60,503 nucleotides of DNA from a virus: the IMG/VR virus record IMGVR_UViG_3300051212_001597, positions 1 through 60,503 of that record; one strand, 5' to 3'. This document shows, piece after piece, positions 1 through 52,145 of this stretch; the first letter of the stretch is position 1; each line of letters starts with the position of its first letter. The notes under the pieces are model-generated. The model was not told the DNA's origin. It did no database searches and worked only from the letters and a program-made list of their open reading frames with translations. The position numbers were made by a program, and so were the translations under genes.

Positions 1-2
1 CT

Positions 3-257: not shown

Positions 258-275
258 TTTCTAGGGTAAACAAAA

Positions 276-836: not shown

Positions 837-851
837 GACTGTCATAGACTT

Positions 852-1328: not shown

Positions 1329-1551
1329 AGAGATTGTTATTTATGTAGACTATATCGGGGCTTCTAAATACGGTGTTTTTGTGGATGATCCAATCAAGGA
1401 AAATCCAGACGCCGTCCATAAAACAGTAGACGCAAGCCTCTCCTACATAGCGGACAAATTCGGCATTGATACTCATGTTGAAATCTCTCATTGCGCAGAG
1501 ATTATCTTCAAGCTTGAGAGAAACCTAGACATGGACGAGAATCTGTCATGA
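1321..1551 (+). CDS. Small hypothetical protein
   Basis: This 76-residue acidic protein overlaps the end of the deaminase-like gene by 8 nt and the next gene by 4 nt (ATGA), so it looks translationally coupled. It has no membrane segment, cysteine motif or family signature that I recognise. The tight overlaps on both sides are the main evidence that it is real. Confidence 0.65.
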   Translation: MIEEIVIYVDYIGASKYGVFVDDPIKENPDAVHKTVDASLSYIADKFGIDTHVEISHCAEIIFKLERNLDMDENLS

Positions 1552-1958: not shown

Positions 1959-1959
1959 A

Positions 1960-3009: not shown

Positions 3010-3013
3010 CATT

Positions 3014-3610
3014 ATGGAAGAAAATAAATTTACAATAAACAAAGCCACAGAACTGCTGCAATCATTCTCAGGTTTAATGAAAGATGGTTGCGTATCTAGA
3101 GATGTTTACAACGAAAGAAGAAAGCTTTGTGAATCATGTGATCAAAACAACATAAATCAAAGCACAAAGAAACACTTCTGCGGAGGGTGCGGGTGCGGGG
3201 CTAGGCCTATGGCCGCACTTTACATAGAAGGCGTTCCTGTTGAGGAAGACCACAGTGTTAGACTATGGATGCCAAAATCAAACTGCCCAAAGAATCTACA
3301 TAAAGATGAGCGCGGCACTGGAAGCTTTAAAGAGGTTGGTGGTAGAATGAAACAACTAAAGGAGTTCACCCTCTCGACACTTGCTGAATCAATAGGAGCG
3401 TCTAGGAAGGACGACCCCCTTACGCCAGTTAATCAGACTATAGAAATAGTCGAGTCTGTCTCTGTTGACGAGAACGAGCTTGATGAGCTTGCAGACATAA
3501 TGGCTCCAGAAATCGAAAAAATCTCAGGCTCTGCAGCCTACAATGATTCGAAGGAAACAGCAAATGAAAAACACGATACACATTCCGGTAACAAGCAGCA
3601 ATCAGATTGA
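3014..3610 (+). CDS. Zinc-ribbon-like phage protein
   Basis: This 198-residue protein has a Cys array typical of a small phage zinc-binding module: C39-x2-C42, C56-x2-C59-x-C61 and C91-P. The second half is acidic and low complexity. It starts 4 nt after the Cys-rich gene 1960-3009, and its 3' end overlaps the next small gene by 47 nt. The biochemical role is unknown. Confidence 0.65.
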   Translation: MEENKFTINKATELLQSFSGLMKDGCVSRDVYNERRKLCESCDQNNINQSTKKHFCGGCGCGARPMAALYIEGVPVEEDHSVRLWMPKSNCPKNLHKDERGTGSFKEVGGRMKQLKEFTLSTLAESIGASRKDDPLTPVNQTIEIVESVSVDENELDELADIMAPEIEKISGSAAYNDSKETANEKHDTHSGNKQQSD

Positions 3611-3728
3611 TCAAGTTAGAATGATAGTTAGAGCTATCACTAACGGCACAAATCAAAACTACAGAGTTAGAGAACGAAAGAATCGCAAGGGGCGCTATCT
3701 AAGCGTCTCAATTGACAAGAACCGCTGA
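3564..3728 (+). CDS. Small basic hypothetical protein
   Basis: This is a 54-residue frame from an ATG at 3564; an upstream ATG at 3543 is also possible. It begins MKNTIHIPVT and ends in a basic tail (RERKNRKGRYLSV). It overlaps the zinc-ribbon gene by 47 nt and ends one base before the ATG at 3730. Its beta-strand/helix layout resembles the next protein, so the two may be distant relatives. Coding status is moderately likely. Confidence 0.45.
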   Translation: MKNTIHIPVTSSNQIDQVRMIVRAITNGTNQNYRVRERKNRKGRYLSVSIDKNR

Positions 3729-3729
3729 A

Positions 3730-3996
3730 ATGTACAGACTATTCATCGACTATCCAATCAATGCCTCCTCGACAGAGGAGGCTGTTCTTATCGCACGAAA
3801 GATTATTGAAGGAACTGTTGTTTCAGAAGATAACAAGTCCTTCATGCTGTCTTCTGGTATTGATCAGATCAATTACAGGCTTGGTCATGACGAGGACAGG
3901 CAGAATAGAAATTATCTTGTTATGACAGAATCGGGACACGGCTCCACGAAAAAAACCAAAGTTTTCTTGGAGAAAAAGGTAACAGAAGACGTATAA
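3730..3996 (+). CDS. Small hypothetical protein
   Basis: I chose the ATG at 3730, one base after the stop of the preceding small gene. An in-frame TTG at 3712 would add six residues. The product is 88 residues, starts MYRLFIDYPINA and has a basic tail. It is the last gene before the tRNA cluster, ending 10 nt upstream of the first tRNA-like element. No family is recognised. Confidence 0.55.
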   Translation: MYRLFIDYPINASSTEEAVLIARKIIEGTVVSEDNKSFMLSSGIDQINYRLGHDEDRQNRNYLVMTESGHGSTKKTKVFLEKKVTEDV

Positions 3997-4006
3997 TAAG
4001 ATGTAA

Positions 4007-4077
4007 GCGCTGTGGGCGGAGAGTTTCGCAGACCGACTTATAATCGGTTCAACAAGGGGCAGCACCTTGACGGCGCA
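4007..4077 (+). tRNA. Non-canonical tRNA-like cloverleaf with Ile(TAT) anticodon
   Basis: A full cloverleaf can be drawn. The 7-bp acceptor is 4007-4013 with 4070-4076 (one G-U pair). The D-stem is 3 bp (4016-4018 with 4027-4029). The anticodon stem is 5 bp (ACCGA/TCGGT) around a standard loop CTTATAA with T33, anticodon TAT and A37. The T-stem is 5 bp (CAAGG/CCTTG). The T-loop is GGCAGCA instead of the usual TTC-type loop, and the D-loop lacks the GG pair, so the usual elbow contacts cannot form. It ends 7 nt before tRNA-Gly. It would read ATA, a codon this phage uses often. No CCA is encoded. Confidence 0.5.
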
Positions 4078-4084
4078 TTTGGTT

Positions 4085-4157
4085 GCGAGTGTAGCTCAGC
4101 TGGTAGAGCCTTGGTTTTCCAAACCAATTGTCGCGGGTTCAAGTCCCGCCATTCGCT
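4085..4157 (+). tRNA. tRNA-Gly(TCC)
   Basis: Canonical cloverleaf: 7-bp acceptor GCGAGTG with CATTCGC (one G-U), D-arm GCTC/GAGC, anticodon arm TTGGT-TTTCCAA-ACCAA with anticodon TCC, and T-arm GCGGG-TTCAAGT-CCCGC. CCA is not encoded. It reads GGA. Confidence 0.93.
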
Positions 4158-4160
4158 TTA

Positions 4161-4260
4161 AGAGATCGCGTTGATCTCTACTAGACACAGAAGGTTTTAG
4201 CTTTTAAGTAGATTATTCTACAGAATAAAGGTGAGGACGGACGACGCACTTCTGTGTTTA
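4161..4260 (+). ncRNA. Hairpin plus 79-nt long-stem RNA element between tRNA-Gly and tRNA-Leu
   Basis: A 7-bp hairpin (AGAGATC/GATCTCT, 4161-4179) starts 3 nt after tRNA-Gly. It is followed by an element closed by a 12-bp stem, 4182-4193 with 4249-4260 (one G-U). Inside are two hairpins that exclude each other: GTAGA/TCTAC and TATTC/GAATA share bases. No open frame covers the region. It ends 3 nt before tRNA-Leu. It could be a tRNA-processing spacer or a separate small RNA. I do not know this element. Confidence 0.4.
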
Positions 4261-4263
4261 GAT

Positions 4264-4336
4264 GGCTTCCTAGTCCAAAGGCAGAGACAGAAGACTTAAA
4301 ATCTTCACAGTGTGGGTTCGAGTCCCACGGAAGCTA
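4264..4336 (+). tRNA. tRNA-Leu(TAA) with short variable loop
   Basis: Acceptor GGCTTCC with GGAAGCT (one G-T pair), short D-stem GTC/GAC, anticodon arm GAAGA-CTTAAAA-TCTTC with anticodon TAA, T-arm GTGGG-TTCGAGT-CCCAC, and discriminator A. The variable region is only 5 nt, whereas bacterial tRNA-Leu normally carries a long variable arm. The isotype is assigned from the anticodon alone. CCA is not encoded. Confidence 0.88.
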
Positions 4337-4363
4337 CTGTTAGAAATCCCAGTCAACGGAGGG

Positions 4364-4454
4364 GCGCGCACTCCGTAGAAGAACGCGATTAAGCAAAAAA
4401 TCGAACTCGTCGCAAGGGTTCGCAGAGGGATGCGGGCAATCTGTAGAAGAACGC
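4364..4454 (+). repeat. Imperfect direct repeat, 23 nt, 68-nt period
   Basis: The 23-nt segment at 4364-4386 recurs at 4432-4454 with 20 of 23 bases identical; both copies end GTAGAAGAACGC. The first copy overlaps a hairpin ACGGAG/CTCCGT. The 68-nt period is near tRNA length. The stretch fills the spacer between tRNA-Leu and the next tRNA-like element and contains no gene. Confidence 0.5.
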
Positions 4455-4458
4455 AAAA

Positions 4459-4544
4459 GGGCGAATGGTATAAAGGACGTGTGAGCCTCTTAGGGTATTA
4501 CCCACGGTTACCGTGGAATGTGGGTTCGAATCCCACTTCGCCAT
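4459..4544 (+). tRNA. tRNA-like element with intact acceptor and T-arm but no regular anticodon arm
   Basis: Acceptor GGCGAA (4460-4465) pairs with TTCGCC (4537-4542). The T-arm is perfect (GTGGG-TTCGAAT-CCCAC), and a strong hairpin CCACGG-TTA-CCGTGG sits where a class II variable arm would be. The 36 nt left for the D- and anticodon arms contain CTTAGGG, which looks like a Leu(TAG) loop, but its flanks do not pair. It may be a decayed tRNA-Leu, an interrupted tRNA or a functional tRNA-like RNA. Confidence 0.4.
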
Positions 4545-4551
4545 TTCGAAT

Positions 4552-4572
4552 CTAGGTTAGTGTTTAACCTAG
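4552..4572 (+). other. Strong hairpin after the tRNA-like element
   Basis: Perfect 7-bp stem CTAGGTT/AACCTAG with loop AGTGTTT; an extra A-T pair can form inside. It has no following T-run, so it does not look like an intrinsic terminator. A similar hairpin follows tRNA-Gly, which suggests a processing or 3'-end role in this cluster. Confidence 0.4.
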
Positions 4573-4573
4573 G

Positions 4574-4686
4574 TAGCGTGTGCCAAAATCTGTATAGGAA
4601 TGGCAAAAAGCCAAAAGAACCTGTACTTACAATGTAACTAAAGTTATAAAGGAAAACTCCTCCGAGTAACCTTTGGCAACACGCTA
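4574..4686 (+). ncRNA. 113-nt multibranched RNA element closed by a 14-bp stem
   Basis: TAGCGTGTGCCAAA at 4574-4587 pairs over all 14 bases with 4672-4686, leaving one bulged A. The interior can form TGGC-AAAAA-GCCA, TTAC-AAT-GTAA and either ACTC/GAGT or GGA/TCC. No gene overlaps it, and it ends 7 nt before tRNA-Lys. The 14-bp closing helix is the main evidence. I recognise no known RNA family. Confidence 0.45.
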
Positions 4687-4693
4687 TATTTTA

Positions 4694-4766
4694 GCTCTCT
4701 TAGCTCAGTTGGTAGAGCATTCGGCTTTTAACCGATAGGTCGTAGGTTCGATCCCTACAGGGAGCA
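4694..4766 (+). tRNA. tRNA-Lys(TTT)
   Basis: Canonical: acceptor GCTCTCT with AGGGAGC, D-arm GCTC/GAGC, anticodon arm TTCGG-CTTTTAA-CCGAT with anticodon TTT, T-arm GTAGG-TTCGATC-CCTAC, discriminator A, CCA not encoded. It reads AAA/AAG and lies 15 nt upstream of the next start codon. Confidence 0.95.
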
Positions 4767-4781
4767 TTAAAGGAGTAAGTT

Positions 4782-5132
4782 ATGAAATTCAAGAAAATCG
4801 AAACAAACAAAACAACACCTTCTGAGATTACAGAAAAAGACTTCAAAATGATTCGTGTAACAATTAACTTTCCAGTACACAAGTCTTTTGGTCTTCATGA
4901 CATCTTATCAGAACTAGAAGGAATCGTTTCTGCCTATCCTCCAGAAAGGAATAGAGAAGAATTTATGGTCATTGAAGAATCTGAAGTGACAAAGGAAGAT
5001 CTCTCAAAATGGGTATCAACAAGTAAAACAACATCTGGCTGGGTTTGCTATAACCTAGACTCAGACAAAGAATATGAGATTGGAAAAATTTTCAAGAAGT
5101 CTTCGCGGCCGAGTGGGAAACGGCGGAGTTGA
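4782..5132 (+). CDS. Hypothetical protein, paralogue of the 36248-36553 product
   Basis: This 116-residue protein begins with a good Shine-Dalgarno (AGGAG) before ATG 4782. Its core (MIRVTINFPVHK, then DILSELE and the later WVCYN/DKEYEI region) aligns with the product at 36248-36553 (MVKVTLMFPVWK, DILSEFN, WLFYH/DYEIYL). The pair is therefore an internal duplication. The last 11 codons lie inside a tRNA-like sequence starting at 5099. Function unknown. Confidence 0.7.
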   Translation: MKFKKIETNKTTPSEITEKDFKMIRVTINFPVHKSFGLHDILSELEGIVSAYPPERNREEFMVIEESEVTKEDLSKWVSTSKTTSGWVCYNLDSDKEYEIGKIFKKSSRPSGKRRS

Positions 5133-5225: not shown

Positions 5226-5900
5226 ATGGATATTTCAGAATTACTAATAAGCCTATCTTTTAAATCAAACTTAAACGAATTTCCACAAGCAAGACTAGCT
5301 GTCCACAATTCTGCTACCGTGAGATCTGAAGATCTAAACGAGCAAATTTTAATTGGGCCTGCGTTCATTAATATTCAAGAATCTGAAAAGGGATACACCC
5401 TAAATCTCGCAAATTCTTTTGAGTGTCCTTTGTATTTTGTTTTAGACCTCAATATGAAAACTGACTCAGAGCCAAAGAGGGTCCGAATTCAAATTCCAGA
5501 AAGCGTCAAACAACAAATAGATGAACAGAATAAATCTGTTCAAGATACGGCGTCTATTAATTACGTAAAATGTCAAAACGAGTTTTCTTTTGATGGAACG
5601 CAACTAGATACTGTTAAAAGTACAGAAAAATACGTTGATCTTATTTGGGATGGAAGAAAAACATCCACACCTTATATGAAGCATCGTATAGTAACTAAAA
5701 TAGATACTAACGATAATATCGCCTTTAAGGTTGATTTTTTCGATATTACCGATATAAATATGGATGGCCAAACAGACAAAAAAGACGCAGAAATCTGTAT
5801 AGCTAGTTGGAATACAGCTGAAGGCGATGTAAATTTAGATGGAACTACTGACTCTCAAGATGTATCAATTATAATGAGTCGATGGGAAACGCATGAATGA
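5226..5900 (+). CDS. Protein with C-terminal dockerin type I-like domain
   Basis: Residues about 172-222 contain two calcium-loop repeats of dockerin type (DINMDGQTDKKDAE and DVNLDGTTDSQDVS), each followed by a short helix. The N-terminal 170 residues are beta-rich and unrecognised. By family, dockerins bind cohesin modules and fold on calcium. A phage could use one to join virion parts or bind surface scaffolds. AAGGA precedes the ATG. The gene follows a tRNA-like element and overlaps the next gene by 8 nt. Cohesin is not visible in the window. Confidence 0.68.
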   Translation: MDISELLISLSFKSNLNEFPQARLAVHNSATVRSEDLNEQILIGPAFINIQESEKGYTLNLANSFECPLYFVLDLNMKTDSEPKRVRIQIPESVKQQIDEQNKSVQDTASINYVKCQNEFSFDGTQLDTVKSTEKYVDLIWDGRKTSTPYMKHRIVTKIDTNDNIAFKVDFFDITDINMDGQTDKKDAEICIASWNTAEGDVNLDGTTDSQDVSIIMSRWETHE

Positions 5901-6129
5901 AGATATTAAATCTGGAGCAAAAACTAGTGAATTTTGGGTATCATTGGCTCCTTTAATTTTGAGCTTTTCAAAAATCTCAGAAGAAAACACAGAGAACTCA
6001 AAGTATATAATGATATGCGGCTGCATTTTGGGATGCTTTTATATAGCTAGCAGAACGGCAATAAAAATAAATGTTAGACGAACAAAAAATAAAGAAGAGA
6101 TACAGGTCGGCTATCAAAGTAATCAATGA
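5893..6129 (+). CDS. Small two-segment membrane protein, possible holin
   Basis: This 78-residue protein has two hydrophobic segments (about 14-28 and 38-56) and a basic C-terminus. The pattern of TSEFW before the first segment and Y-x3-SR-x3-K after the second is common in phage holin-like proteins. Holins form lesions in the inner membrane at lysis. It overlaps the dockerin gene by 8 nt and the following sigma-like gene by 59 nt. No endolysin lies next to it, so the call is tentative. Confidence 0.5.
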   Translation: MNEDIKSGAKTSEFWVSLAPLILSFSKISEENTENSKYIMICGCILGCFYIASRTAIKINVRRTKNKEEIQVGYQSNQ

Positions 6130-40994: not shown

Positions 40995-41415
40995 GTCGTC
41001 AACACTGTCTGATATATACGACAGCGATAACCCAGCAAGGATTAAGATATACAATTCCATAAGAAAATTTCTTGCCTCATTCCCAAAAGGAACCGTTTAT
41101 TGTATAGGAAAATACAAAAATGGAATATCAATGGATTTTTGCGAGGCTTGTTCTGAAATAGGTATTTTAAGAGAAGTAGCCGTTCCTTACGAAGACAATG
41201 ATCATAATTGGCCAGATCCTATAAAGAACAAGTTCAAAAAAATAATAAAAAGCTCTAGTTCTGTTGTTTTGGTTTCTACTGGCGGGTTTAATCCAAAAAA
41301 AATAAAAGATATGGATAATTATGTTTATAAAAAATCAGATTATATAATTAACATAGTTTCATCCGAAAAAAACTTAGAAATCAAAATGGTTAAAAATGGA
41401 CATAAAATTTCTTAG
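40975..41415 (+). CDS. SLOG/YpsA-like nucleotide-binding-fold protein
   Basis: This 146-residue protein has TVYCIGKYKNGISMDFCEAC, then VAVPYEDNDHNWP and a late SSSSVVLVSTGGFNPKK, then SDYIINIVS. This order matches the SLOG (DprA/YpsA-like) Rossmann fold. Such proteins bind nucleotides or nucleotide-derived signals. It is embedded among replication genes and overlaps both neighbours. Its ligand is unknown. Confidence 0.5.
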   Translation: MIVAMNESSTLSDIYDSDNPARIKIYNSIRKFLASFPKGTVYCIGKYKNGISMDFCEACSEIGILREVAVPYEDNDHNWPDPIKNKFKKIIKSSSSVVLVSTGGFNPKKIKDMDNYVYKKSDYIINIVSSEKNLEIKMVKNGHKIS

Positions 41416-42376
41416 AGCGTCTTCAATAAACTCTTACAGAGGATGTGAGTTTGCTTTTTTTATGGAGCAAATATTGGAGATACCAACAAAGAGCGGAAAA
41501 AAAGCCTTATTAGGAACTATCACGCATCATGTGCTAGAACTAATGGCAAAAGCAAAAAAGCTAGGCCACGAAGGCGGCTTGCTTTTTGACCATGAAAAGC
41601 TTCTCGATATATGTTGGAATAGATATACAAGAGAAAATCCAGAAATGGATTTAAAAAAGGGCGACAAAAAATTTTGTCTTTCATCAATTCAAAAAGTTAT
41701 AAATACTTTTTATGATCCAAAAAATCTCAACGTTCTACACACAGAAAAACAGTTTAGGATACCATTAACAGATCCTGTTTTTAAATATGAATACTATGAT
41801 ATAGTAAAAGGGGTTGTTGAAAAAGGAAATTACGAGATAAGAGGAACGATAGATTTGATAACCCAAGTTGACAACGAAACTATTGAAGTTGTTGATTGGA
41901 AGACGGGGTCTAGAAAATGTTGGAACACAGGAGAGAATAAGGAGTTTGATTATCTTCAATCAAAAGATATTCAGCTAAGAATGTATGATCTTGCCTGCTA
42001 TTTAATGTTTCCACAGTACAAGAACAGGCTTCTAACTATTCATTTTATCAATGATGGTGGGCCTTTTACTGTTGCTTTTTCCGACGAAGACAGAAAAGAG
42101 ACCCTAGCCATAATAGAAAAAACATTTAAAAATATTAAATGGAACCAGCTTCCAACTAGACTAAAAGAAAGCAACGCTAGCGACAGATGGAAATGTAAAA
42201 GTGTTTGCCACTTTGGCAAAACAAAAACAGCAGCTGGCTGCAGCATTTGCGACACAATACATTCTTACGTTGTTGGAAACGGTATAGACCAGACGATACT
42301 AGAGATAGATAAGCTAAAGAAATCTAAGCAAGAGCTAAAAAACAAGACTAGCGATAGGAGAAACGTTTTTGAATAA
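41396..42376 (+). CDS. RecB/Cas4-type PD-(D/E)XK exonuclease with Fe-S Cys set
   Basis: It starts SSINSYRGCEFAFFMEQIL (first Cys, C17) and continues with LGTITHHVLELM. Catalytic motifs are IRGTIDLITQV and EVVDWKTGS. A C-terminal set CKSVCHFGKTKTAAGCSIC completes the four Cys of an AddB/Cas4-like iron-sulphur cluster. It probably resects DNA ends for recombination. The protein is 326 residues. The polymerase gene starts 1 nt later. Confidence 0.87.
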   Translation: MDIKFLRASSINSYRGCEFAFFMEQILEIPTKSGKKALLGTITHHVLELMAKAKKLGHEGGLLFDHEKLLDICWNRYTRENPEMDLKKGDKKFCLSSIQKVINTFYDPKNLNVLHTEKQFRIPLTDPVFKYEYYDIVKGVVEKGNYEIRGTIDLITQVDNETIEVVDWKTGSRKCWNTGENKEFDYLQSKDIQLRMYDLACYLMFPQYKNRLLTIHFINDGGPFTVAFSDEDRKETLAIIEKTFKNIKWNQLPTRLKESNASDRWKCKSVCHFGKTKTAAGCSICDTIHSYVVGNGIDQTILEIDKLKKSKQELKNKTSDRRNVFE

Positions 42377-42377
42377 T

Positions 42378-44237
42378 ATGAACTACACACCACTACACGT
42401 ACATACATGCTGGTCACTATTAGACAGCACGGTTGATGTAAATGAATATGTCGCAAAAATAAAAGAGGCTGGAGGCTCTGCTTGCTCAATAACCGACCAT
42501 AATAATTTAAAAGCGGTTGTCCCATTCTTCAAAGCATGTAAGGCTAGGGGGATAAAGCCAATAATAGGCGTCGAAGTGGACGTTTATTTAACGGACGAAA
42601 AATTTATTGGCAGACTAACACTGATAGCCAAAAACAAAGTTGGCTACAAAAATCTAGTAAATATAGTCTCAAACGCTAGATCAGAGTCTGTGTTTAAAAA
42701 AGAGACTACGCCAAAAACTCTTTTCAAAGATCTTCACCAATACTCTAGCGGGATCATATGCATGATCGGTGACTTAAGAAGCGAAATTTTTCATTCTTGC
42801 TTTGTTAATTTTGAAATGGCGTATGGCTCAAATAGCGAGGAGGAGTGCGAAAGCCTTCTTAGGCAGGACTGGAAAGAAAAGGTAAATGAGTTATTAGAAA
42901 AATACAGGAGGGTATTTAGCGATGTATTTTTGTATTTTGATTATTCAAAACTTCCAATTATTAAGGTTTTAGGCCAAAAAATAAAACAAGAATTTGATGA
43001 AGCTATACCCTCTGTAAATGTTCACTACATATCAAAAGAAGATTATCAGATTCACAGGCTTATATCAAGCGACTCAGAGGCTTTGTCTTCAAACATAGAT
43101 GATTCTAGGATTTTTGAAGAAGAGTATTGCTTTTGCCATCTTACAAAAACAATTCCGTCTGGCGAAAAGACCAAATTGGTTGTAGATTTGGTTGAGGACT
43201 TCTCAATAGAAGAACGCCCTATGATACCAGATTTTAAGATTAAAGGACATGAAATACAGGATCAGGACGAGTATCTTAGAGATATTTGCAGAAAGGGATT
43301 CTTAGAAAAGATATCGCCAAAGATTTCTTCAGACGCAAACCTTAAAAACATCTACCTAGACAGGATTAGGCACGAGTTAGGTGTTTTCAAGCAGGCTAAG
43401 ATATCGGGCTATTTCTTAATCGTCAAAGACATTGTTGATCACATTAGGCAAATGGGCTTTCCAGCAGATAGCCGCGGCTCGTCTTCGGGCTGCTTAATTT
43501 CCTACCTAATAGGCGTATCGTCAATTGATCCAATAGTGCCAGATGCATCACTTGCATATGCAAAAGAAAGAGAGCTTCCTTTTGAAAGATTTTACAACGA
43601 AGGAAGAAATACCGCTAGTAACGTTTCTTTGCCAGACATTGATATGGACGTGCCTCCTTCCATAAGAGACGATGTTATTAAATATCTTCGCGAAAAATAC
43701 GGAAAAGATCAAGTTGCTCATATAATCACGCATTCTAGGTTCAAAGGCAAGGGTGCAATAAAAGAAGCTTTTAGAATATTAAAACCTGTTAATAATTACT
43801 TTGATGTATCCAATGAAATAACAAAGCTTTTTGTTGATGAGAGCAAGATATCAGATGAATTAAGTGAACTTCAAGAAGAAGACCCGTCATATGGAATCAT
43901 AAGATGGAATATAGATAATATTACTGATGTAAATAAGTTTTACAATCAGTACAAAGAAGCTTTTGATTTTGCTATAAAAATAGAAAAGTTGCCAAAAAAC
44001 GAAAGTGTTCATGCTGCTGGTATAATAATAGGCGATAGACCGTTATATAAGCACTTTCCAATGACATATTCAAGCAAGTTAGGTCAGATGGTGATTGATA
44101 TCGAAGGTTCAGATTTAGAAATTCTTGGAGGCGTTAAGTTTGATATATTAGGAGTTTCTGCTATAGAAAAGGTTTTCCAGATAGAGAAAATGATAAATAA
44201 AAAACTTAATGAGGTTAGATTTGGAGAATTAAATTGA
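42378..44237 (+). CDS. dnaE: DNA polymerase III alpha, N-terminal half (PHP + palm)
   Basis: ATG 42378 gives 619 residues. The PHP domain has PLHVHTCWSLLDS and SITDHNNLKA. The palm has GFPADSRGSSSG, the catalytic pair in SLPDIDMDVPP, and the third Asp in GVKFDILGVS near the C-terminus. It then stops (FGELN) exactly where intact DnaE continues into the fingers, which are encoded at 50162-51679. No intein sequence is present. The two chains probably assemble into one polymerase. PHP His/Asp residues look intact, so it may still have nuclease activity. Confidence 0.92.
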   Translation: MNYTPLHVHTCWSLLDSTVDVNEYVAKIKEAGGSACSITDHNNLKAVVPFFKACKARGIKPIIGVEVDVYLTDEKFIGRLTLIAKNKVGYKNLVNIVSNARSESVFKKETTPKTLFKDLHQYSSGIICMIGDLRSEIFHSCFVNFEMAYGSNSEEECESLLRQDWKEKVNELLEKYRRVFSDVFLYFDYSKLPIIKVLGQKIKQEFDEAIPSVNVHYISKEDYQIHRLISSDSEALSSNIDDSRIFEEEYCFCHLTKTIPSGEKTKLVVDLVEDFSIEERPMIPDFKIKGHEIQDQDEYLRDICRKGFLEKISPKISSDANLKNIYLDRIRHELGVFKQAKISGYFLIVKDIVDHIRQMGFPADSRGSSSGCLISYLIGVSSIDPIVPDASLAYAKERELPFERFYNEGRNTASNVSLPDIDMDVPPSIRDDVIKYLREKYGKDQVAHIITHSRFKGKGAIKEAFRILKPVNNYFDVSNEITKLFVDESKISDELSELQEEDPSYGIIRWNIDNITDVNKFYNQYKEAFDFAIKIEKLPKNESVHAAGIIIGDRPLYKHFPMTYSSKLGQMVIDIEGSDLEILGGVKFDILGVSAIEKVFQIEKMINKKLNEVRFGELN

Positions 44238-44440
44238 AACCTATATCTAGCGCTTCAATATCGATAAAAGAAGATAGCGATAGGATATTAATGCAACAAA
44301 ATGGTCAAACTATAGCTATATCTAATATAAATGATGTGATGTTGGCAATAGAAATTTTAAGCGCTTTTAAACACAGATTTTTTATCACCAAATCCTGTAA
44401 TTATAATTTTGTGTATAATAACAATAATGGATCGTCTTAA
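44234..44440 (+). CDS. Small hypothetical protein
   Basis: TTG start overlapping the polymerase stop (TTGA); 68 residues. It begins KPISSASISIKEDSDRI and has no motif. It overlaps the next gene by 14 nt, where its last codons contain the promoter-like GTGTATAATA. Confidence 0.45.
   Translation: MKPISSASISIKEDSDRILMQQNGQTIAISNINDVMLAIEILSAFKHRFFITKSCNYNFVYNNNNGSS
44411..44420 (+). promoter_or_regulatory. Promoter-like GTGTATAATA
   Basis: It contains a perfect TATAAT and the GTGTATA core, ending 6 nt before ATG 44427. It is a variant of the recurrent motif and would give an almost leaderless transcript of the virion-type gene. Confidence 0.42.
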
Positions 44441-45557
44441 TTTAAATAAGCACTTAAATTTAGCAGCAAAAGCTTACTTCATAGCTAAAAGCGAAGAAGG
44501 AGATACGTCTACTCCGCCTACACCTGAGGAAGAGGCTTTGTTTGAAGCTATTAGGCAGAGCATGAATCCTGAGACGGAGGAGGGTGTTTGGGAATTTATA
44601 CAGCAAAATCTTGCGTCTATTTTGGGTGGAAGTAGCATCGCGCTGACATTACTGCTTAATCAAAACTTTAGAAATTGGATGAAGAGAATAAGCATTAGTT
44701 TGTGGAATATGTTTAAAAGATCTGGTCTTTCTTCTTCCCAAGCATTACAAAAAGTAATCCTCTTCTTAAGAGACCTATTTAGAAGCGGTCCAAACAATCC
44801 AGATAATCCTTTATCGCAAGATTGCATGGACGCTCTCAGAGGTCTAAAGGATATATTCTTAACGATATCTCAAATGCCTGCCGAAACATCGATTACCGCA
44901 TTGATAGACGCTCTAACTGAAGCTGTTTCTTTAGCGGCTAGCATAGTAGCTAAACTAGCCTCTTGCACTGGTATTGGGGCACAATACGCGTATAATTTCA
45001 TATATGAATGGCTACTAACCTTGCTAGGTGATGGGCTATCAGCAATGGGACTTACTCAAGATCAAATAAAGCAATTTATAAAGAAACTGGTAGAATGGAT
45101 TCTTAACGGAGCTAAGGTTCCAGAAATTCCACCTCTGCCATACGTTGTACCATTTAGTCTTCCAAGATTAGATCCAAATTGTATAAATCCTAGAGACTAT
45201 CTAAAAGATTTAAGAATTCACAGAATGGAAAATAGTGAATATGTCGCGCCATTCTTAGCTGGATTAGCTTGGGCGGCGCTGATAGCGGCTGCTGTTGCCG
45301 CTGTTGTAGTTGCTCTTCCCGCAATATTGGCTGGATCAACAGCGGTTGGGGCCGTTTTAGCTGCTGCTGGTATAACGGCGCTAGGACTATCACAAACAGC
45401 CTCGGCCGCTGGCTATGAAATGACGGAAGAACAAATTGAGGCATTTATATTAGAAAAGGCTAAAGAAGCCGCTAAATGTAAGGGCGTAAGTGTTGAAGAA
45501 AATCCAGACACGCCAGAAGACAATCAAACAAACCCAGCACTTAGTCCTTCGAGATAA
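44427..45557 (+). CDS. Membrane-active virion-type protein with Ala-rich C-terminus
   Basis: Start ATG 44427 (MDRLNLNKHLN). The 376-residue product has a leader ending near KSEEGD, one hydrophobic segment at about 55-75, helical repeats, and a long Ala/Val/Gly hydrophobic tract near 275-325 (AALIAAAVAAVVVALP). The layout matches the minus-strand product at 47674-48606. It may be an ejection or internal virion protein that inserts in membranes. It is tail-to-tail with the next gene (17-nt overlap). Confidence 0.6.
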   Translation: MDRLNLNKHLNLAAKAYFIAKSEEGDTSTPPTPEEEALFEAIRQSMNPETEEGVWEFIQQNLASILGGSSIALTLLLNQNFRNWMKRISISLWNMFKRSGLSSSQALQKVILFLRDLFRSGPNNPDNPLSQDCMDALRGLKDIFLTISQMPAETSITALIDALTEAVSLAASIVAKLASCTGIGAQYAYNFIYEWLLTLLGDGLSAMGLTQDQIKQFIKKLVEWILNGAKVPEIPPLPYVVPFSLPRLDPNCINPRDYLKDLRIHRMENSEYVAPFLAGLAWAALIAAAVAAVVVALPAILAGSTAVGAVLAAAGITALGLSQTASAAGYEMTEEQIEAFILEKAKEAAKCKGVSVEENPDTPEDNQTNPALSPSR

Positions 45558-45843
45558 ATCTAAGATTTAATCTAAAAAGAATTTTCGCAATTGCTGAAGC
45601 TGTTTCAGAAACGCTTTCTTCTGATAATTCAGGGTGGGTTGCGTGCAACATTTCATGTATAATTGTATCTAACTTATCTTTTTCTGATAAATTCCTATTT
45701 ATCCAAATCTCTGGTTTCTTGTATCTGTGATCATCACATTCTCCAAAAGATCGTGGCATATCCTTAGATTTTACAAATCTAATAGTCCAATGCTTTCCAT
45801 TAAACTTAAATTTTACTTTTTCTTCTTTCTTTGCGGGTGGCAT
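45541..45843 (-). CDS. HExxH zinc metallopeptidase-like protein
   Basis: This 100-residue protein has TIIHEMLHATHPELSEE, giving HExxH with a downstream Glu in EESVSE, as in minimal SprT/gluzincin-type phage proteins. Small enzymes of this type occur in phage morphogenesis gene blocks. Substrate unknown. It overlaps the upstream minus gene by 31 nt. Confidence 0.72.
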   Translation of the reverse strand: MPPAKKEEKVKFKFNGKHWTIRFVKSKDMPRSFGECDDHRYKKPEIWINRNLSEKDKLDTIIHEMLHATHPELSEESVSETASAIAKILFRLNLRFISKD

Positions 45844-46196
45844 GATGGTAAAAGATCTACATCAAATGGCTTTCTCTTGAAAGACCCTGTCCTTAGAGCA
45901 TGAAGAAAACCGTTAACTCTACCATATCCCCACTGCTGTGGCCCTGTAACGTTTGGTCTTACACTTTCAGGATTGGTTTTATATGCACCAACGCCTCTTC
46001 TAAAAACGGCCATTAATGTTTTTGTAGATGTTTTTTTGCAAGAATCTTGACCATGTTTTTCATTATGGTCTGCCGCCTTTTTAGCTAGAGTTTCTCTAAC
46101 TGACTTGCTCTGCTCTTCGCCTAAGGCAAAAAAAATAACATCTAAAAAACTTAGATTCACTTCTGACATCGGTACTTCTATATCTTCATTGTTCAT
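45813..46196 (-). CDS. Virion/morphogenesis protein with RG-GAY-TNP-SVRP motif
   Basis: This 127-residue protein contains RRGVGAYKTNPESVRPNV followed by QQWGYGRVNGFLHAL. I know this pattern from uncharacterised domains of phage head-region proteins (DUF5824-like). The tail is basic. It overlaps both neighbours. Function is not known; head or packaging region is inferred. Confidence 0.6.
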   Translation of the reverse strand: MNNEDIEVPMSEVNLSFLDVIFFALGEEQSKSVRETLAKKAADHNEKHGQDSCKKTSTKTLMAVFRRGVGAYKTNPESVRPNVTGPQQWGYGRVNGFLHALRTGSFKRKPFDVDLLPSCHPQRKKKK

Positions 46197-46425
46197 TTTT
46201 ATTGTTTCTTTTAATCAATTCTTTGTAAGCCCAAAGTAAAGCTATTACAGCAACAGGAGCATACCAAAAAATCCAACCGTAACTATTACCACCCTGACCA
46301 GAATCTATACCCTTTTTAATTGCATATGTCATAGGCGAATCATTTCTTTCATCTGGAATGAATTGTGGTCCAGAAAAACAAGAACTCATAATTAGTGTTA
46401 GATAAATTATTGTTAGCTTTTTCAT
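46186..46425 (-). CDS. Small lipoprotein with C-terminal membrane segment
   Basis: This 79-residue protein has an N-terminal signal and lipobox-like LIMSSC, about 35 polar residues, a membrane segment (WIFWYAPVAVIALLWAY) and a basic tail. Lipobox plus C-terminal anchor is the layout of a unimolecular spanin, but the periplasmic span is very short. It is adjacent to a probable holin, so a lysis role is possible. Confidence 0.55.
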   Translation of the reverse strand: MKKLTIIYLTLIMSSCFSGPQFIPDERNDSPMTYAIKKGIDSGQGGNSYGWIFWYAPVAVIALLWAYKELIKRNNKNEQ

Positions 46426-46859
46426 GTTTTATTTCCCGCAGAGGCGCTTCCAAAATAAAAACCAACAATACTCAAAAGTATTTGCCTGTATTCTCCAGCA
46501 TACAGATATCCGTTTATCTCAACGAAAAAAGTTTTATTAAAACTAGGTATAAATCCTAAGAAATATTCTGGAGACTCTGTTTGAACTTCTACGAAAGTTG
46601 GTATTCCAAAAAACGGTAAAACGAATGGCGCGGCTAATGTGGCAAAAAGAACAGTAAGAACTATAAGTTGTCTTACGCCCTTTCCAATATCTATTGGCAC
46701 TCTTTTAACAGCGTTGTCCTTAGCTTTTTCTTTTTGTTCGTTTAAAGCTATAAGCCTCTCAAAAAGCTGCTTGTCGTTATCTCTTTTCTCTGCTAGATAA
46801 CGAAAAACAAAGCCTGTTATTCCGCCACCCAACATAGAAAGGAGTTCTACAGGTATCAT
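46422..46859 (-). CDS. Three-segment membrane protein, 3TM holin-like
   Basis: This 145-residue protein has membrane segments at about 5-22, 63-92 and 124-140. The final LLSIVGFYFGSASAGNK matches the C-terminal helix of 3TM holins of phages and gene-transfer agents, with the polar helix between segments 1 and 2. It is coupled to the lipoprotein gene. It may form the lysis pore. Confidence 0.65.
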   Translation of the reverse strand: MIPVELLSMLGGGITGFVFRYLAEKRDNDKQLFERLIALNEQKEKAKDNAVKRVPIDIGKGVRQLIVLTVLFATLAAPFVLPFFGIPTFVEVQTESPEYFLGFIPSFNKTFFVEINGYLYAGEYRQILLSIVGFYFGSASAGNKT

Positions 46860-47359
46860 GATTTATCTTTATTGAATTTTGATATTTTTTTATGCATCTG
46901 TTGTCTATTTGAGCAAGGCATAAAATAATTTGTGTTTGGTTTCAAACCAGGCTGTTTCCCATCTATATTAAAAAATCTTTGTATTGTATCGCAGCCTAAT
47001 TTTCTTGCGAGTTTTCTAGCTGCTTTTTTCTTCGTAAATGTATATGATTTATAATCTTCCTTGTCAATTTCTGAAGATGTATAATCAGTTACACTCTTTT
47101 TCTTTTCCCACATTCTGCAAGACCAGTATCTAGCCTTCCACTTTGGACCTGGATTGTCATCACAGCTGTGTCTCGATCTAAAATTCTTTCTCCTGTTGTC
47201 GCTGTCTCTTTTTATTTCCATGTTTGGATCGCCAAACATAACACGAACAACGTTTCCTTTATCATTTTTCACATAAACGTAAAATTTTTTCTTTCCGTAG
47301 CCAGGATCGCCTTTGCCTATCCGCCTAGGCTTGTTTAAAGTTACATTTTTCTTATCCAT
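46856..47359 (-). CDS. Basic phage head-region protein (RHSCDD domain)
   Basis: ATG 47359 has an AGGTGG Shine-Dalgarno; the longer start is rejected. The 167-residue product contains KKFYVYVKNDKGNVVRVMFG and then RSRHSCDDNPGPKWKARYW, a pattern recurring in uncharacterised phage virion/prohead proteins. It is very basic. Direct role unknown. Confidence 0.62.
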   Translation of the reverse strand: MDKKNVTLNKPRRIGKGDPGYGKKKFYVYVKNDKGNVVRVMFGDPNMEIKRDSDNRRKNFRSRHSCDDNPGPKWKARYWSCRMWEKKKSVTDYTSSEIDKEDYKSYTFTKKKAARKLARKLGCDTIQRFFNIDGKQPGLKPNTNYFMPCSNRQQMHKKISKFNKDKS

Positions 47360-47681
47360 TTTTGACCACCTCATTTATAAATGAAATAAACGAATTTGCT
47401 TTGGATTTTTTAATCTTTGCTAGTATATTTCTAGCCCTGTTTTGCAGCTTAGATTTTAGCGCCGCTGGTATCTTTGCTTGTGGTATTCTAGCAATAGCAT
47501 TTCTCACATGTATAATATCTATCTTTCCGCTAGCATCCTTATAAGGAAAGTGTCTTAACGACCTTGGGGTAGTCTTCCCTTCCGAGTCTTTCTTACCACC
47601 AGGCTCAATGTACATGAATGCCGAGTCTGGCAAATCGTTTTTATATTTTGTTGTCCATACTGCCGATATAGATTTATCCAT
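47352..47681 (-). CDS. Phage morphogenesis-type small protein
   Basis: This 109-residue protein has the pattern KNDLPDSAFMYIEPGGKKD, then TPRSLRHFPYKD and IDIIHVRNAIARIP. It is widespread in phages, often fused to prohead-protease or core proteins. Here it stands alone in a minus-strand virion block. Function unknown. Confidence 0.65.
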   Translation of the reverse strand: MDKSISAVWTTKYKNDLPDSAFMYIEPGGKKDSEGKTTPRSLRHFPYKDASGKIDIIHVRNAIARIPQAKIPAALKSKLQNRARNILAKIKKSKANSFISFINEVVKNG

Positions 47682-48606
47682 TTAATAAAGCCTGTTGTTG
47701 CTGAATTCTTTCTTGTATTAACTGCTGTATTTCACTATCAGGCATATCGGCCAGAGCCGCTCCTGAACAAGTAAGCGCTGCCCCGCCAGTTACCGCAAGT
47801 GCTATTGGTGCGGCTGCTCCACCAGTAAAGACTATTATTGCAACCGCACCCACACCAAGCGTAGTCCATAGAGCCACTTGACCCCAATCTACACCTGCCG
47901 TTGGTCCTTGCGTAGTTTGACAACCGTACTGGCGCACCACACAATCTGTAGCCCAAGCAGCCGCAAACTGTTCATTAAATTTTGTGAAAATAGCACCTAA
48001 GGCTAAACCAGGCTCTAATACTCCATCAAGCACTTTTTCAAAGTTTCCAAATACATCCACATCTTCAATACCACCAAAAGGACTAAATTCTATCAAAAGC
48101 TTTAAAAACTTTTTAAACTCTAGATTACAGTTCCCATCAGAAATTATGTTTAAAAGATCGCGCATCTCTTCAAGAATCTGTGCTATTGTTCTAGCAAACA
48201 ATACAAGTGATCTACTTGATGCTTCTCTAGGGTCGTTCAGAACTGTGTAAAATTGTCCGGCTAGATTATTTCCTGACATTGATTGTCTAAATAGATTGAA
48301 AAAAGCCTCTAGCTCATCAATAATTTTTTTCATTCTTGGATCTTTAAAATACTTTAAACAATTTGGTGGTAAATTTCTTAACCATTCAACGATTTTAGCA
48401 ATAGCCGCCATGCCGAAAAAAGCAAGAGAGCCTATAATCCAACCCCCTTCAACCTCAATATTACTTATTATTTCATTTAAGCCCAAAAACGGATCTTCTA
48501 CAACTTCCAAACTTGGTAAAGCTGTGATACTATCAATGCTGACATCTTCATTCGCGGCAGTGTTAAGTAAGAATTTAATATTTAATTGTTTTTTATTGTT
48601 TTTCAT
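47674..48606 (-). CDS. Membrane-active virion-type protein, layout twin of 44427-45557
   Basis: This 310-residue protein has a leader ending NTAANE, a hydrophobic segment (WIIGSLAFFGMAAIAKIVEW), a helical middle, and an Ala/Gly/Val-rich tract near 245-290 (TLGVGAVAIIVFTGG). It then ends in a Gln-rich helix (ERIQQQQ). The order of parts equals that of 44427-45557 on the other strand. It may be an internal or ejected protein. Not a known family. Confidence 0.58.
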   Translation of the reverse strand: MKNNKKQLNIKFLLNTAANEDVSIDSITALPSLEVVEDPFLGLNEIISNIEVEGGWIIGSLAFFGMAAIAKIVEWLRNLPPNCLKYFKDPRMKKIIDELEAFFNLFRQSMSGNNLAGQFYTVLNDPREASSRSLVLFARTIAQILEEMRDLLNIISDGNCNLEFKKFLKLLIEFSPFGGIEDVDVFGNFEKVLDGVLEPGLALGAIFTKFNEQFAAAWATDCVVRQYGCQTTQGPTAGVDWGQVALWTTLGVGAVAIIVFTGGAAAPIALAVTGGAALTCSGAALADMPDSEIQQLIQERIQQQQALLNG

Positions 48607-48860
48607 AAAACCTGCTCTAGTTGATCCTCTGTTTTTACCAAAACATCCCCATTTTTGTAAGTATTTCCAAAGTTTTCAACTTTATAGTGGATTAAGTACC
48701 CAGAATTGTTTGGCAGACTTTCAATCTTTACGACCTTTCCAACGCTTCCATAATGTAAACACTTCGTATTTATGTTCTTAACAGTATCGCCAACCATGAA
48801 TCCTTTATAGCTAGCGGTTAACTTGTTAAGGAGTTTTTGTATTGATCTTGATAGGGACAT
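48603..48860 (-). CDS. Small SH3/KOW-like phage head-region protein
   Basis: This 85-residue protein has a basic amphipathic leader (MSLSRSIQKLLNKLTAS) and then GDTVKNINTKCLHYGSVG, VVKIESLPNNSG and NGDVLVKTEDQLEQ, a beta-barrel pattern seen in several phage head proteins. It is divergent from the gene at 48890 with a 29-nt gap. Confidence 0.62.
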   Translation of the reverse strand: MSLSRSIQKLLNKLTASYKGFMVGDTVKNINTKCLHYGSVGKVVKIESLPNNSGYLIHYKVENFGNTYKNGDVLVKTEDQLEQVL

Positions 48861-48873
48861 TTAACTAACCCAA

Positions 48874-48884
48874 TAGTGTATACA
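48874..48884 (+). promoter_or_regulatory. Promoter-like motif TAGTGTATACA in a divergent gap
   Basis: It ends 5 nt before ATG 48890. It overlaps the palindrome GTGTATACAC (48876-48885), so a minus-strand copy faces the gene 48603-48860, whose ATG lies 16 nt away. The same core and spacing occur before 8209 and 32813. Confidence 0.45.
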
Positions 48885-48889
48885 CAATT

Positions 48890-49501
48890 ATGCCAACACA
48901 TCAGATCCCAGGTGATTTCTTAGATTTTGTTAAAGAAACTTGCGCTAGAAATGGCATTAAGCTTAAGATAGGCAGGGGCAAGTCTGTTGTTATGAAACCT
49001 TTTGGGTTTAGAGTTTTAGGATATTTTGACGAAGGCGGTTCAATACTTGCATGTGCCAGCGGAGGGTCCGCACAAGATTTTCTTTCAACACTAGTTCATG
49101 AGTTTGCGCATGTTTTACAGTGGATTGAGGGAGACAAAACGTACAAGTTCTGCGATCATAGAAAATATGGCAGTGTTCAAAATGCGGTTTGTATGTGGAT
49201 AAATAATGAGATAACTTTGAATAATAAAATCTTAATTAGGTACACTCAAAAAATGATCGATTGTGAATTAAACGCAGAGAGAAGAGCAGTAAAACTAATA
49301 AAAGAATTCAATCTTCCAATTGATCTAGACATATATAAATCTAAAGCTTCAGCCGTTCTTTATAGTTATTGGGTTTCAATAAAAACCAAAAAATGGGACG
49401 CTGAGATAGGTAAAAAGCAAATGGCTGCCAGTGGAAGATCGCTTAAAAGGTCTTTTAGGAGTCTTCCAAAAAACGTCGAAAGATCCTTCATAGGCGCCTA
49501 A
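48890..49501 (+). CDS. HExxH zinc metallopeptidase-like protein
   Basis: This 203-residue protein has STLVHEFAHVLQWIEGD (HExxH) and a later Glu in DCELNAERRAVKL that could be the third ligand. It has a basic C-terminus. It resembles phage-encoded minimal zincins. It lies directly before the DnaQ-like gene but may belong to the virion block. Substrate unknown. Confidence 0.68.
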   Translation: MPTHQIPGDFLDFVKETCARNGIKLKIGRGKSVVMKPFGFRVLGYFDEGGSILACASGGSAQDFLSTLVHEFAHVLQWIEGDKTYKFCDHRKYGSVQNAVCMWINNEITLNNKILIRYTQKMIDCELNAERRAVKLIKEFNLPIDLDIYKSKASAVLYSYWVSIKTKKWDAEIGKKQMAASGRSLKRSFRSLPKNVERSFIGA

Positions 49502-49509
49502 AATGATTC

Positions 49510-50160
49510 ATGGCGAACAATAAGAATTTCGTTGTTTTTGACTTAGAAACTAGCGGGTTAGATCCTAAAGACGGCGCTGAGATTGTTCAGATATCAGCTG
49601 TTGCTTTAAAATATTCTGACTACTCTGAAATAGAAAATGGTAGGTTTGATATACTTATAAAGCCCCAAAAGCCTGAAAAGGCTAGCCCAGACGCCATAAA
49701 GGTGATTGGAGAAGATCTCTGGAATAGGGCTAAATCTGACGGCCTTCACCCAAAGGTTGGTATAAGAAAGTTCAAAGAGTTTTTAGACTCTGTTAATCAG
49801 ACAAAGAAGTTTTGGACATCCCCAGTTCTTGTTGGCTTCAACATAGTAAACTTTGACATACCATTCCTTAAGCACCAGATGCTTGAATACAAGATAATAT
49901 CAGAAAAAGATGATTTGCCCTGGTCTAACATGCAAATAGACATGTTTCCCTTGATGTTTTGCATATTTGGAAGAGACGGTTTGAAAAACAACAAGATGGA
50001 CACGTATGCAGAGATAATAGGACTTAAGAGAGCAACCGCAAATCACGACGCTGCTGAGGATGTAGACATAACAAAAAAGATGTTCCAAAGATATATGAAC
50101 TTCATGAACTTTAAAATAAGACCAAAAATAAACGCTCAAAAAGAAACCCAAGCAAATTAA
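49510..50160 (+). CDS. DnaQ-like 3'-5' exonuclease (proofreading subunit candidate)
   Basis: DEDDh motifs: VVFDLETSGLDP (Exo I, D and E), LVGFNIVNFDIPFL (Exo II, D) and NHDAAEDVDITKKM (Exo III, H and D). The protein is 216 residues. It lies 1 nt upstream of the C-terminal polymerase half and likely proofreads with the split alpha subunit. It has no clear clamp-binding tail. Confidence 0.9.
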   Translation: MANNKNFVVFDLETSGLDPKDGAEIVQISAVALKYSDYSEIENGRFDILIKPQKPEKASPDAIKVIGEDLWNRAKSDGLHPKVGIRKFKEFLDSVNQTKKFWTSPVLVGFNIVNFDIPFLKHQMLEYKIISEKDDLPWSNMQIDMFPLMFCIFGRDGLKNNKMDTYAEIIGLKRATANHDAAEDVDITKKMFQRYMNFMNFKIRPKINAQKETQAN

Positions 50161-50161
50161 A

Positions 50162-51679
50162 ATGACATTTGAGACATCAAACATATCGTTAAAAAACGAC
50201 AAGGCTTGGCGGCTAATACAGAATGGTCACACTATAGGCGTATTCCAACTAGAGAGTGATCTAGGCAAGAAATGGTCTGCTACAATAAAGCCCTCTAATA
50301 TAAATGAGCTTAGCGCCGTAATATCATTGATAAGACCTGCATGCCTAGAATCTGGAATGACTGAGACTTATTCAAAGGTAAAAAGTGGCTTAATTGAGAA
50401 GCCCGATTACAATGATGAGTCTGTTAATTCGATACTGTCCCCGACAATGGGCGTTCTTATATATCAAGAACAGCTTATGAAATTTGGTGGCGAAATAGCT
50501 TGGAAGGATCTTCCATACCTTGATAGACTTGTGATTGTTGATAAGCTTAGAAAAGGCATTGGTAAGAAGGATCAAAAAATAATTATTGATCTTAGAGACA
50601 AATTCATAGCAGGATGTCTTAAGAACGGCAGATCAAAAGAAATGGCTGAAAAGCTTTTTTCTCTTATCGAAGGTGCTGGCAGATATGCTTTCAACGACGC
50701 TCACGCTAAAAAATATGCGCTTTGGGCTTACAAAACAGCCTACGTAAAAGCCAACTTTCCACTTGAATTTTATTGCGTCTATCTAACCTACAGCAAAGGT
50801 AAACAGAAGCCTAGAGAGGAGATAGAGGCTTTGATAAACGAGGCTAAGATGCTTGGGATAAGCATAGAAAAACCTTCTGTTTCAAATTCAAATTTTGACT
50901 TCTCAATAAAAGATGGCGTCATTCACTATGGCCTATCTCATATAAAACAGGTTGGTGAGTCTGATGCCGAACTGATAGAATCTCTTAGACCAGCTAGTTT
51001 TACTAGTTTACTTACCACACACTTCGCGTCTTCAGAAAAAATAAGATCACTAGCCCTAGAAAGCCTTATAAATTGTGGGGCTTGCGATGAATACGGACTA
51101 TCTAGATCGTGCATGCTATCTGTCTACAACATGCTTAAGCAATTAACTCAAAAAGAGATCGAGTTTATTTTCTCAAAAATAAATTCAGAAAGCGGAGTTC
51201 TAGATTTGATTGAGGCTGTTAAAAAATGTTCTGTTGAACAATGCGTAAAGAAAAGAAAAGACATAGTTATGTCAGAAGCTTTGTCAATTGACATAAAGTC
51301 TAGCGACTCTGCAGTGATTAAAAATTCTGTTGAAAAAGATCTTCTTGGAATAGCCTTTAGTTATGATTACAATGTAAATGTCGAAGACGACTGGAGTTGC
51401 AAGGAGTGTTTCAATAAAATGCGTGTCAACAAAAACATGATTGCGAATCTAACTGTAAAAATAAACGATATCAAGATTACAAAAACAAAAAAGGGCAAAG
51501 ATCCTGGCAAGGATATGTGCCAACTTTCTATTGCAGATAACACTGGTTTTATAAACGTGGTTTGCTTCCCCGACACATACGAGAAATTTAAAAACTCTAT
51601 AGCGGTTGGTTCATACTACTGCGTAGTGCTTAAGGGAACTGGATTCGGTTGGTCTGTAAATTCAATTAAAAACGTATAA
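50162..51679 (+). CDS. dnaE: DNA polymerase III alpha, C-terminal half (fingers to OB)
   Basis: The 505-residue product begins inside DnaE homology: HTIGVFQLES, VISLIRPACLESGM, TMGVLIYQEQLM and then GRYAFNDAHAKKYALWAYKT, all conserved fingers motifs. A helix-hairpin-helix-like region follows, then an OB fold (about 410-500, including ADNTGFINVVCFPDTYEKF). It lacks PHP and all three catalytic Asp, which are in 42378-44237. The N-terminus MTFETSNISLKND has no intein piece. Confidence 0.92.
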   Translation: MTFETSNISLKNDKAWRLIQNGHTIGVFQLESDLGKKWSATIKPSNINELSAVISLIRPACLESGMTETYSKVKSGLIEKPDYNDESVNSILSPTMGVLIYQEQLMKFGGEIAWKDLPYLDRLVIVDKLRKGIGKKDQKIIIDLRDKFIAGCLKNGRSKEMAEKLFSLIEGAGRYAFNDAHAKKYALWAYKTAYVKANFPLEFYCVYLTYSKGKQKPREEIEALINEAKMLGISIEKPSVSNSNFDFSIKDGVIHYGLSHIKQVGESDAELIESLRPASFTSLLTTHFASSEKIRSLALESLINCGACDEYGLSRSCMLSVYNMLKQLTQKEIEFIFSKINSESGVLDLIEAVKKCSVEQCVKKRKDIVMSEALSIDIKSSDSAVIKNSVEKDLLGIAFSYDYNVNVEDDWSCKECFNKMRVNKNMIANLTVKINDIKITKTKKGKDPGKDMCQLSIADNTGFINVVCFPDTYEKFKNSIAVGSYYCVVLKGTGFGWSVNSIKNV

Positions 51680-51719: not shown

Positions 51720-52145
51720 ATGGCAAATTACAATAAAGTTATTCTTGCAGCAAACTTAGTTTCAGATCCAGAGCTTAAGAACGTTGGAGACTCCAATGTT
51801 GTTAGATTTAGAGTGGCTATTAATAGAAAGTTCACGACTAAGTCTGGCGAAAAGAAAGAAGAAAGCACATACATTGATTGTGAGATGTGGGGTGCTAGAG
51901 CTAGTGTCATTTCTGAGTATATGACAAAAGGCGACCCAATTCTTATTGACGGAATTCTAAAACAAGAGAATTGGGAAACAAAGGATGGAGAAAAGCGAAG
52001 CAAGCACATCATAAGCATTCAGGATTTTGAGTTTATGAGCAATAAGAAGACTGCCGCAACAAGTTCGTCTTCTAACCATGCAGTAAAAGAGAATAAGCGG
52101 CCAACAAGAGAAGCAGCAGCGCAGCTAGAAGATATTCCATTCTGA
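51720..52145 (+). CDS. ssb: Single-stranded DNA-binding protein
   Basis: Bacterial-type SSB, 141 residues: an OB fold from VILAANLVSDPEL through YIDCEMWGARASVISEYM and IDGILKQENWETKDGEKRS, then a Ser-rich linker and the acidic tail LEDIPF that binds partner proteins. It coats ssDNA at the fork, together with the polymerase, helicase and primase encoded nearby. Confidence 0.97.
   Translation: MANYNKVILAANLVSDPELKNVGDSNVVRFRVAINRKFTTKSGEKKEESTYIDCEMWGARASVISEYMTKGDPILIDGILKQENWETKDGEKRSKHIISIQDFEFMSNKKTAATSSSSNHAVKENKRPTREAAAQLEDIPF

Follow-up and report, generated by a model that had tools for sequence, protein, structure and literature searches.

The window analysed here is the whole of a 60,503-base IMG/VR virus record (IMGVR_UViG_3300051212_001597), itself a fragment, and the system in question is its replicative DNA polymerase. 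To judge from profile matches and alignments, the window encodes a C-family DNA polymerase III alpha subunit (DnaE) in two open reading frames (ORFs), the N-half and the C-half, which lie 5.9 kb apart with about 12 genes between them. We propose, with a probability of roughly 0.85, that the two products form a two-chain replicase without covalent joining and that a neighbouring exonuclease is most likely its proofreading subunit. According to this proposal the alpha subunit would be made as one polypeptide carrying PHP, palm and thumb and another carrying fingers, helix-hairpin-helix (HHH) and OB fold; each chain would fold alone, and both would dock via the ordinary palm/fingers interface to give one active enzyme, with neither protein nor RNA splicing, while a DnaQ-like exonuclease encoded between the halves would act as proofreader. 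A two-chain replicase is the simplest account because the active site is kept, selection is strong, the predicted folds are confident and no other replicase was found in the contigs searched. The genes concerned are the following.

42378..44237, plus strand: DnaE N-half (dnaE N-half), with PHP, palm and thumb and the three catalytic Asp, ending in the linker just past the last palm-side helix.

49510..50160, plus strand: gene for a DnaQ-like DEDDh 3'-5' exonuclease, directly upstream of the C-half.

50162..51679, plus strand: DnaE C-half (dnaE C-half), with fingers, HHH and OB fold; its start precedes the conserved fingers sequence by 14 residues.

The ORF of the N-half extends from 42369 to 44237 on the plus strand and its conserved start is the ATG at 42378. 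Its product matched the Pfam families PHP (PF02811, E=5.5e-34) and DNA_pol3_alpha (PF07733, E=1.1e-57), the whole 260-position profile of the latter being covered. Residues D420, D422 and D589 (counted from 42378), whose codons lie near 43635, 43641 and 44142, showed no variation among 12 close N-halves or among 40 diverse ones, in agreement with the initial annotation, which had placed PHP, palm and all three catalytic Asp in this half. The C-half matched DNA_pol3_finger (PF17657, E=3.9e-31) and HHH_6 (PF14579, E=1.5e-14), and its OB fold (PF01336, E=2.9e-5), slightly under the Pfam cut-off, was backed by Foldseek and by the structure model. Alignment to the full-length phage polymerase profile phrog_405 (PHROG 405, 1190 positions) placed the N-half at positions 40-619 and the C-half at 624-1053; the corresponding ranges were about 4-575 and 588-908 in Escherichia coli DnaE, and up to 635 and 647-961 in Taq DnaE. 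Since the halves match phrog_405 at these positions, no conserved part of DnaE is lost as judged by the profile, and since the E. coli and Taq alignments nearly abut, they place only variable linker at the break. The predicted cut between palm and fingers, with the C-half continuing the DnaE alignment, was thus upheld.

AlphaFold predicted a confident fold for each half by itself (N-half alone: predicted local distance difference test, pLDDT, 89.5 and predicted template modelling score, pTM, 0.87; C-half alone: pLDDT 89.4, pTM 0.77). In these models a helix ends at the break and the tail beyond it has low confidence, and Foldseek matched the models of both halves to DnaE crystal and cryo-electron microscopy (cryo-EM) structures. 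Comparison of the window with a near relative gave ratios of nonsynonymous to synonymous substitution rates (dN/dS) of 0.039 for the N-half, 0.063 for the C-half and 0.077 for the exonuclease, which shows strong purifying selection on both halves (0.04-0.06).

A search with the C-half yielded 19 viral contigs of 46-99% identity, and all of those reaching the N-half carry separate halves; in this set the exonuclease lies upstream of the C-half, at a distance of at most about 0.65 kb. Profile searches widened the relatives to about 30-35% identity, and at least 63 distinct N/C pairs, from independent assemblies, share the palm/fingers break. Each scan covers at most 80 loci, the prevalence figures being a lower bound, and the relatives' records are either fragmentary or of uncertain completeness. 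The split is neither a decaying gene nor a single-contig oddity; it is an old, inherited trait of a large viral clade. No cultured member of this clade was found among the cultured phages searched, a collection from which records similar to the window may be missing; the best cultured matches to the N-half were 30-35% identical, and the records opened were intact except phiT1 and KLEB27-3. Among bacterial genomes only distant relatives of at most 39% identity were recovered as candidate related prophages, with an ordinary dnaE where examined.

DnaE genes cut at another place were also observed. In loci L077, L078, L080, L081, L083, L085 and L089 the cut is close to the catalytic DxD motif in the palm, giving products of about 450 and 820-845 amino acids (aa), and L105 is also cut near this motif (521 and 763 aa); contigs with this cut reach about 175 kb.

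The product of the exonuclease gene matched PF00929 (E=2.6e-15) and phrog_192 ('DNA polymerase exonuclease subunit'), and the residues of the DEDDh motif (DxE, D, HxxxxD), D11, E13, D116, H179 and D184, were invariant in 18 exonuclease sequences. Of the 63 distinct pairs, 60 have such a gene between N-half and C-half. When the search was begun from the exonuclease, 73 of 76 loci showed the order N-half, exonuclease, C-half (N-exo-C); of the other three, two are truncated at a contig end, and in the third a 6 kb block separates the N-half from the exonuclease. Because 60/63 pairs and 73/76 exonuclease loci show it, the N-exo-C operon can be taken on gene order as the ancestral form of the main clade. 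Among the 19 split contigs searched whole, 17 contained a PF00929 exonuclease, one gene each, which is the gap gene, and none was detected in L069 and L073. Among 20 records whose polymerase gene is intact or cut elsewhere (and phiT1), PF00929 was absent from 14, and in the remaining records the PF00929 gene is located away from the polymerase gene. The best cultured matches to the exonuclease are from Bacteroides phages, where the neighbours are terminase and ligase genes, not polymerase. The exonuclease is most likely the proofreading subunit of the split polymerase, as these sequence comparisons suggest.

The replication module of the window comprises genes for a DnaB-like helicase, a DnaG-like primase and a PD-(D/E)XK nuclease, followed by the N-half, the block, the exonuclease, the C-half and SSB. 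Its remaining features are as follows.

41396..42376, plus strand: PD-(D/E)XK (Cas4/exonuclease-like) gene (PF12705, E=4.2e-18), the upstream neighbour of the N-half, a position that synteny shows to be kept in the close family.

44234..49501, mixed strands: block between N-half and exonuclease, with a small plus-strand ORF, a 382-aa plus-strand ORF, eight minus-strand ORFs and a 203-aa metalloprotease-like plus-strand ORF.

51720..52145, plus strand: SSB gene (PF00436, E=2.7e-26), the downstream neighbour of the C-half, a position likewise shown by synteny to be kept in the close family.

The initial annotation had described the intervening genes as about 12 in 5.9 kb, mostly virion-type, plus a DnaQ-like gene. 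Their number, extent and DnaQ-like member were borne out; 'mostly virion-type' was not, as no virion function could be assigned to the opposite-strand genes of the block, which matched only metalloprotease-like or unknown families. No homing endonuclease family was matched among the window genes between the halves, where the DnaQ-like exonuclease is present. The block is absent in L006 and L017 (N-exo-C contiguous), L009 and L019, and partly conserved in other close relatives. The intact close relative lacking the block that the initial annotation envisaged was not found: the block-free L006 and L017 are still split. Comparison of these loci indicates that the DnaQ-like gene is the constant part of the gap, the rest of the window block being a later addition, and that the 5 kb block was inserted after the N-exo-C operon arose. 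Exonuclease and C-half stay close, and the N-half can drift off. L356 carries at positions 1-5011, between N-half and exonuclease, a metabolic block (aldehyde dehydrogenase-, aminotransferase- and UDP-sugar dehydrogenase-like by eye) that is unrelated to the window block. The latter encodes two large hydrophobic proteins (44409-45557, plus strand, and 47674-48606, minus strand) with similar-looking C-terminal membrane stretches and no family match, which are possibly related, and two small metalloprotease-like proteins (45541-45843, minus strand, and 48890-49501, plus strand) with HEMLH and HEFAH motifs.

A maximum-likelihood tree was constructed from 41 sequences, including 21 split-clade representatives, and all 21 fell on one side of a branch (bootstrap 100; Shimodaira-Hasegawa-like approximate likelihood ratio test, SH-aLRT, 99). 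The deepest split members, L069 and L073, have the same cut site with other genes in the gap and no exonuclease; either the split came before the exonuclease or L069/L073 lost it. The gap of L069 holds a small protein (5516-6004) resembling a PD-(D/E)XK nuclease by eye, with no Pfam match. Phage phiT1 grouped with intact phage polymerases (support 89/83), and a single origin of phiT1 and the split group was not rejected by the approximately unbiased (AU) test (p=0.165). We envisage that the split goes back to a single event at the base of a clade of uncultured phages, that the N-exo-C operon is old and that blocks were inserted later. A bolder version, which we regard as rather unlikely, makes the exonuclease both founder and keeper of the split: a single insertion would have brought it into dnaE between palm and fingers, and it would now bridge the halves in an obligate three-chain complex of alpha-N, exonuclease and alpha-C. 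If this were true, the proofreader would double as a clamp holding the polymerase together; the exonuclease-free deepest lineage counts against the founder role.

We asked whether the split clade carries another replicase. Neither the PolA nor the PolB family nor a second DnaE was found in the 16 contigs searched, which reach 244 kb and include relatives longer than the window, and an alternative replicase in these contigs was rejected; the intact second alpha subunit looked for following the initial annotation was missing from the 60,503-base fragment as well. One palm-domain match was obtained in 15 of the 16 contigs; the other (G026) gave three, all from a single gene that is interrupted by an apparent split intein and by an additional frame break. 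The fingers matched exactly once in each of 20 contigs.

These results bear on the idea that each chain has a role of its own, the one with PHP and palm being a nuclease or regulator and the one with the fingers a DNA-binding or host-takeover protein. Such roles would suit halves that are each predicted to fold alone, but are improbable given that the polymerase active site in the N-half and the fingers in the C-half are fully conserved, that the halves are co-inherited and that no other replicase accompanies them in the contigs searched, though the window encodes the DnaB-like helicase, primase and SSB. Still less probable is a broken gene (pseudogene, frameshift or assembly error) in a phage using the host replicase. 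It would likewise yield two ORFs, and extra frame breaks are present in a few relatives (L130, L195); against it stand the recurrence of one break across all the independently assembled pairs, the low dN/dS of both halves, their own gene starts, the exonuclease between them and the invariant active site.

The cut lies in a loop between two helices, at about 575/588 of E. coli DnaE. In the window 22 residues are left on the N end and 14 on the C end of the break, and intact relatives typically have 28 linker residues between the two reference positions. Over 88 loci the N tail past the last conserved helix measures 7-32 residues and the C head, from the first Met to the conserved start, 7-42 residues. 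The N part of a split intein usually has about 100 residues. Because tails do not exceed 32 and heads 42 residues there is no room for intein halves, and alignments of both revealed no N-terminal Cys/Ser block and no C-terminal HN motif at this break, features that are plain in the family's other inteins. That a split intein rejoins the halves after translation, as in cyanobacterial DnaE, is hence scarcely credible even though inteins do occur in the family (L091-L094 at GRG/S and FNK/SHA; L165 at RPG/C, HNH-like), and the absence of an intein from either edge had been correctly anticipated. Even in L094, with a recognisable mini-intein at FNK/SH, the palm/fingers break itself is without intein.

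Inspection of these intein-bearing loci showed in L091-L094 an apparent split intein at GRG/S (GRG/SAAG) in the palm together with the mini-intein at FNK/SHA, the latter site being that used in the cyanobacterial split DnaE. The palm piece of L094 (1274-2473, 2590-2895, 5986-7980) is broken again near the catalytic DxD, and L165 (8500-10863) has a 272-residue fingers insertion at RPG/C with intein-like ends and HNH-like sequence.

The idea that a trans-splicing intron joins the halves as RNA, brought to mind by the group I introns of some phage polymerase genes (PMC2993671), can be set aside with equal assurance, as an Rfam search of the window and nine relatives at gathering thresholds gave neither a group I nor a group II intron, each half has its own stop codon and conserved Met start, and an opposite-strand block intervenes in the window. 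With no splicing route found, the two chains would have to assemble non-covalently, as first supposed.

We infer assembly and polymerase activity from the conservation evidence and the precedent of gp43A/gp43B; the exonuclease may also bind to either half. Several points weigh against a two-chain replicase. The contigs being fragmentary or of unknown completeness, a further polymerase may lie outside them; the split enzyme lacks the C-terminal region by which bacterial DnaE binds tau, a point that bears on its processivity; and the structure models are of single halves, from which the complex is extrapolated.

A replicative polymerase is among the proteins least likely to tolerate cutting, and here a deep viral clade has inherited one as two separate pieces. 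A naturally evolved two-chain polymerase III alpha would let one study how separate palm and fingers chains recognise one another, and whether the proofreading subunit can serve as glue. Annotation by single ORFs misses the replicase of this phage group, which seems to have no member among the cultured phages searched. The open-access literature yielded no report of a phage DnaE split without an intein, which is weak evidence of novelty.

Comparison with known systems indicated both precedents and differences. The gp43A and gp43B proteins of phage 25 co-purify and are polymerase-active, and the split NrdA of phage Aeh1 is fully active (PMC2988022). Like the window, the T4-related gp43A/gp43B (Aeromonas phages 25 and 44RR) and Aeh1 NrdA have an essential replication enzyme in two genes without intein; they concern, however, a family B polymerase or ribonucleotide reductase in few phages, with the gap occupied by a homing endonuclease or an untranslated insert, whereas the window belongs to a large old clade with a family C polymerase and a proofreading-type exonuclease. 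The cyanobacterial alpha subunit likewise comes from two distant genes, but is cut at FNK/SH, about 180 residues into the window C-half, and carries a split intein, while the window is cut earlier and has none; the initial annotation had recognised this difference in position. The only cultured phage seen with the same cut, among those searched, is Rossellomorea phage phiT1 (gp20/gp18, PV767480), whose gap is a 49-aa ORF and in whose genome no PF00929 exonuclease was found. DnaE is also in two genes in Bacillus phage vB_BauM_KLEB27-3 (gp166/gp164, OM634661; L285, 5926-10296), but, unlike in the window, the cut falls within the fingers, about 50 residues in, and an HNH endonuclease gene separates the two parts. 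PolC resembles the window clade in that a DEDDh exonuclease and a C-family polymerase are linked in evolution; the exonuclease of PolC is inserted in the chain within PHP, whereas that of the window clade is a free gene between the palm and fingers genes. Phage replicases in pieces are thus already known from the T4-like gp43A/B, and the split DnaE with an exonuclease between its halves is a new variant.
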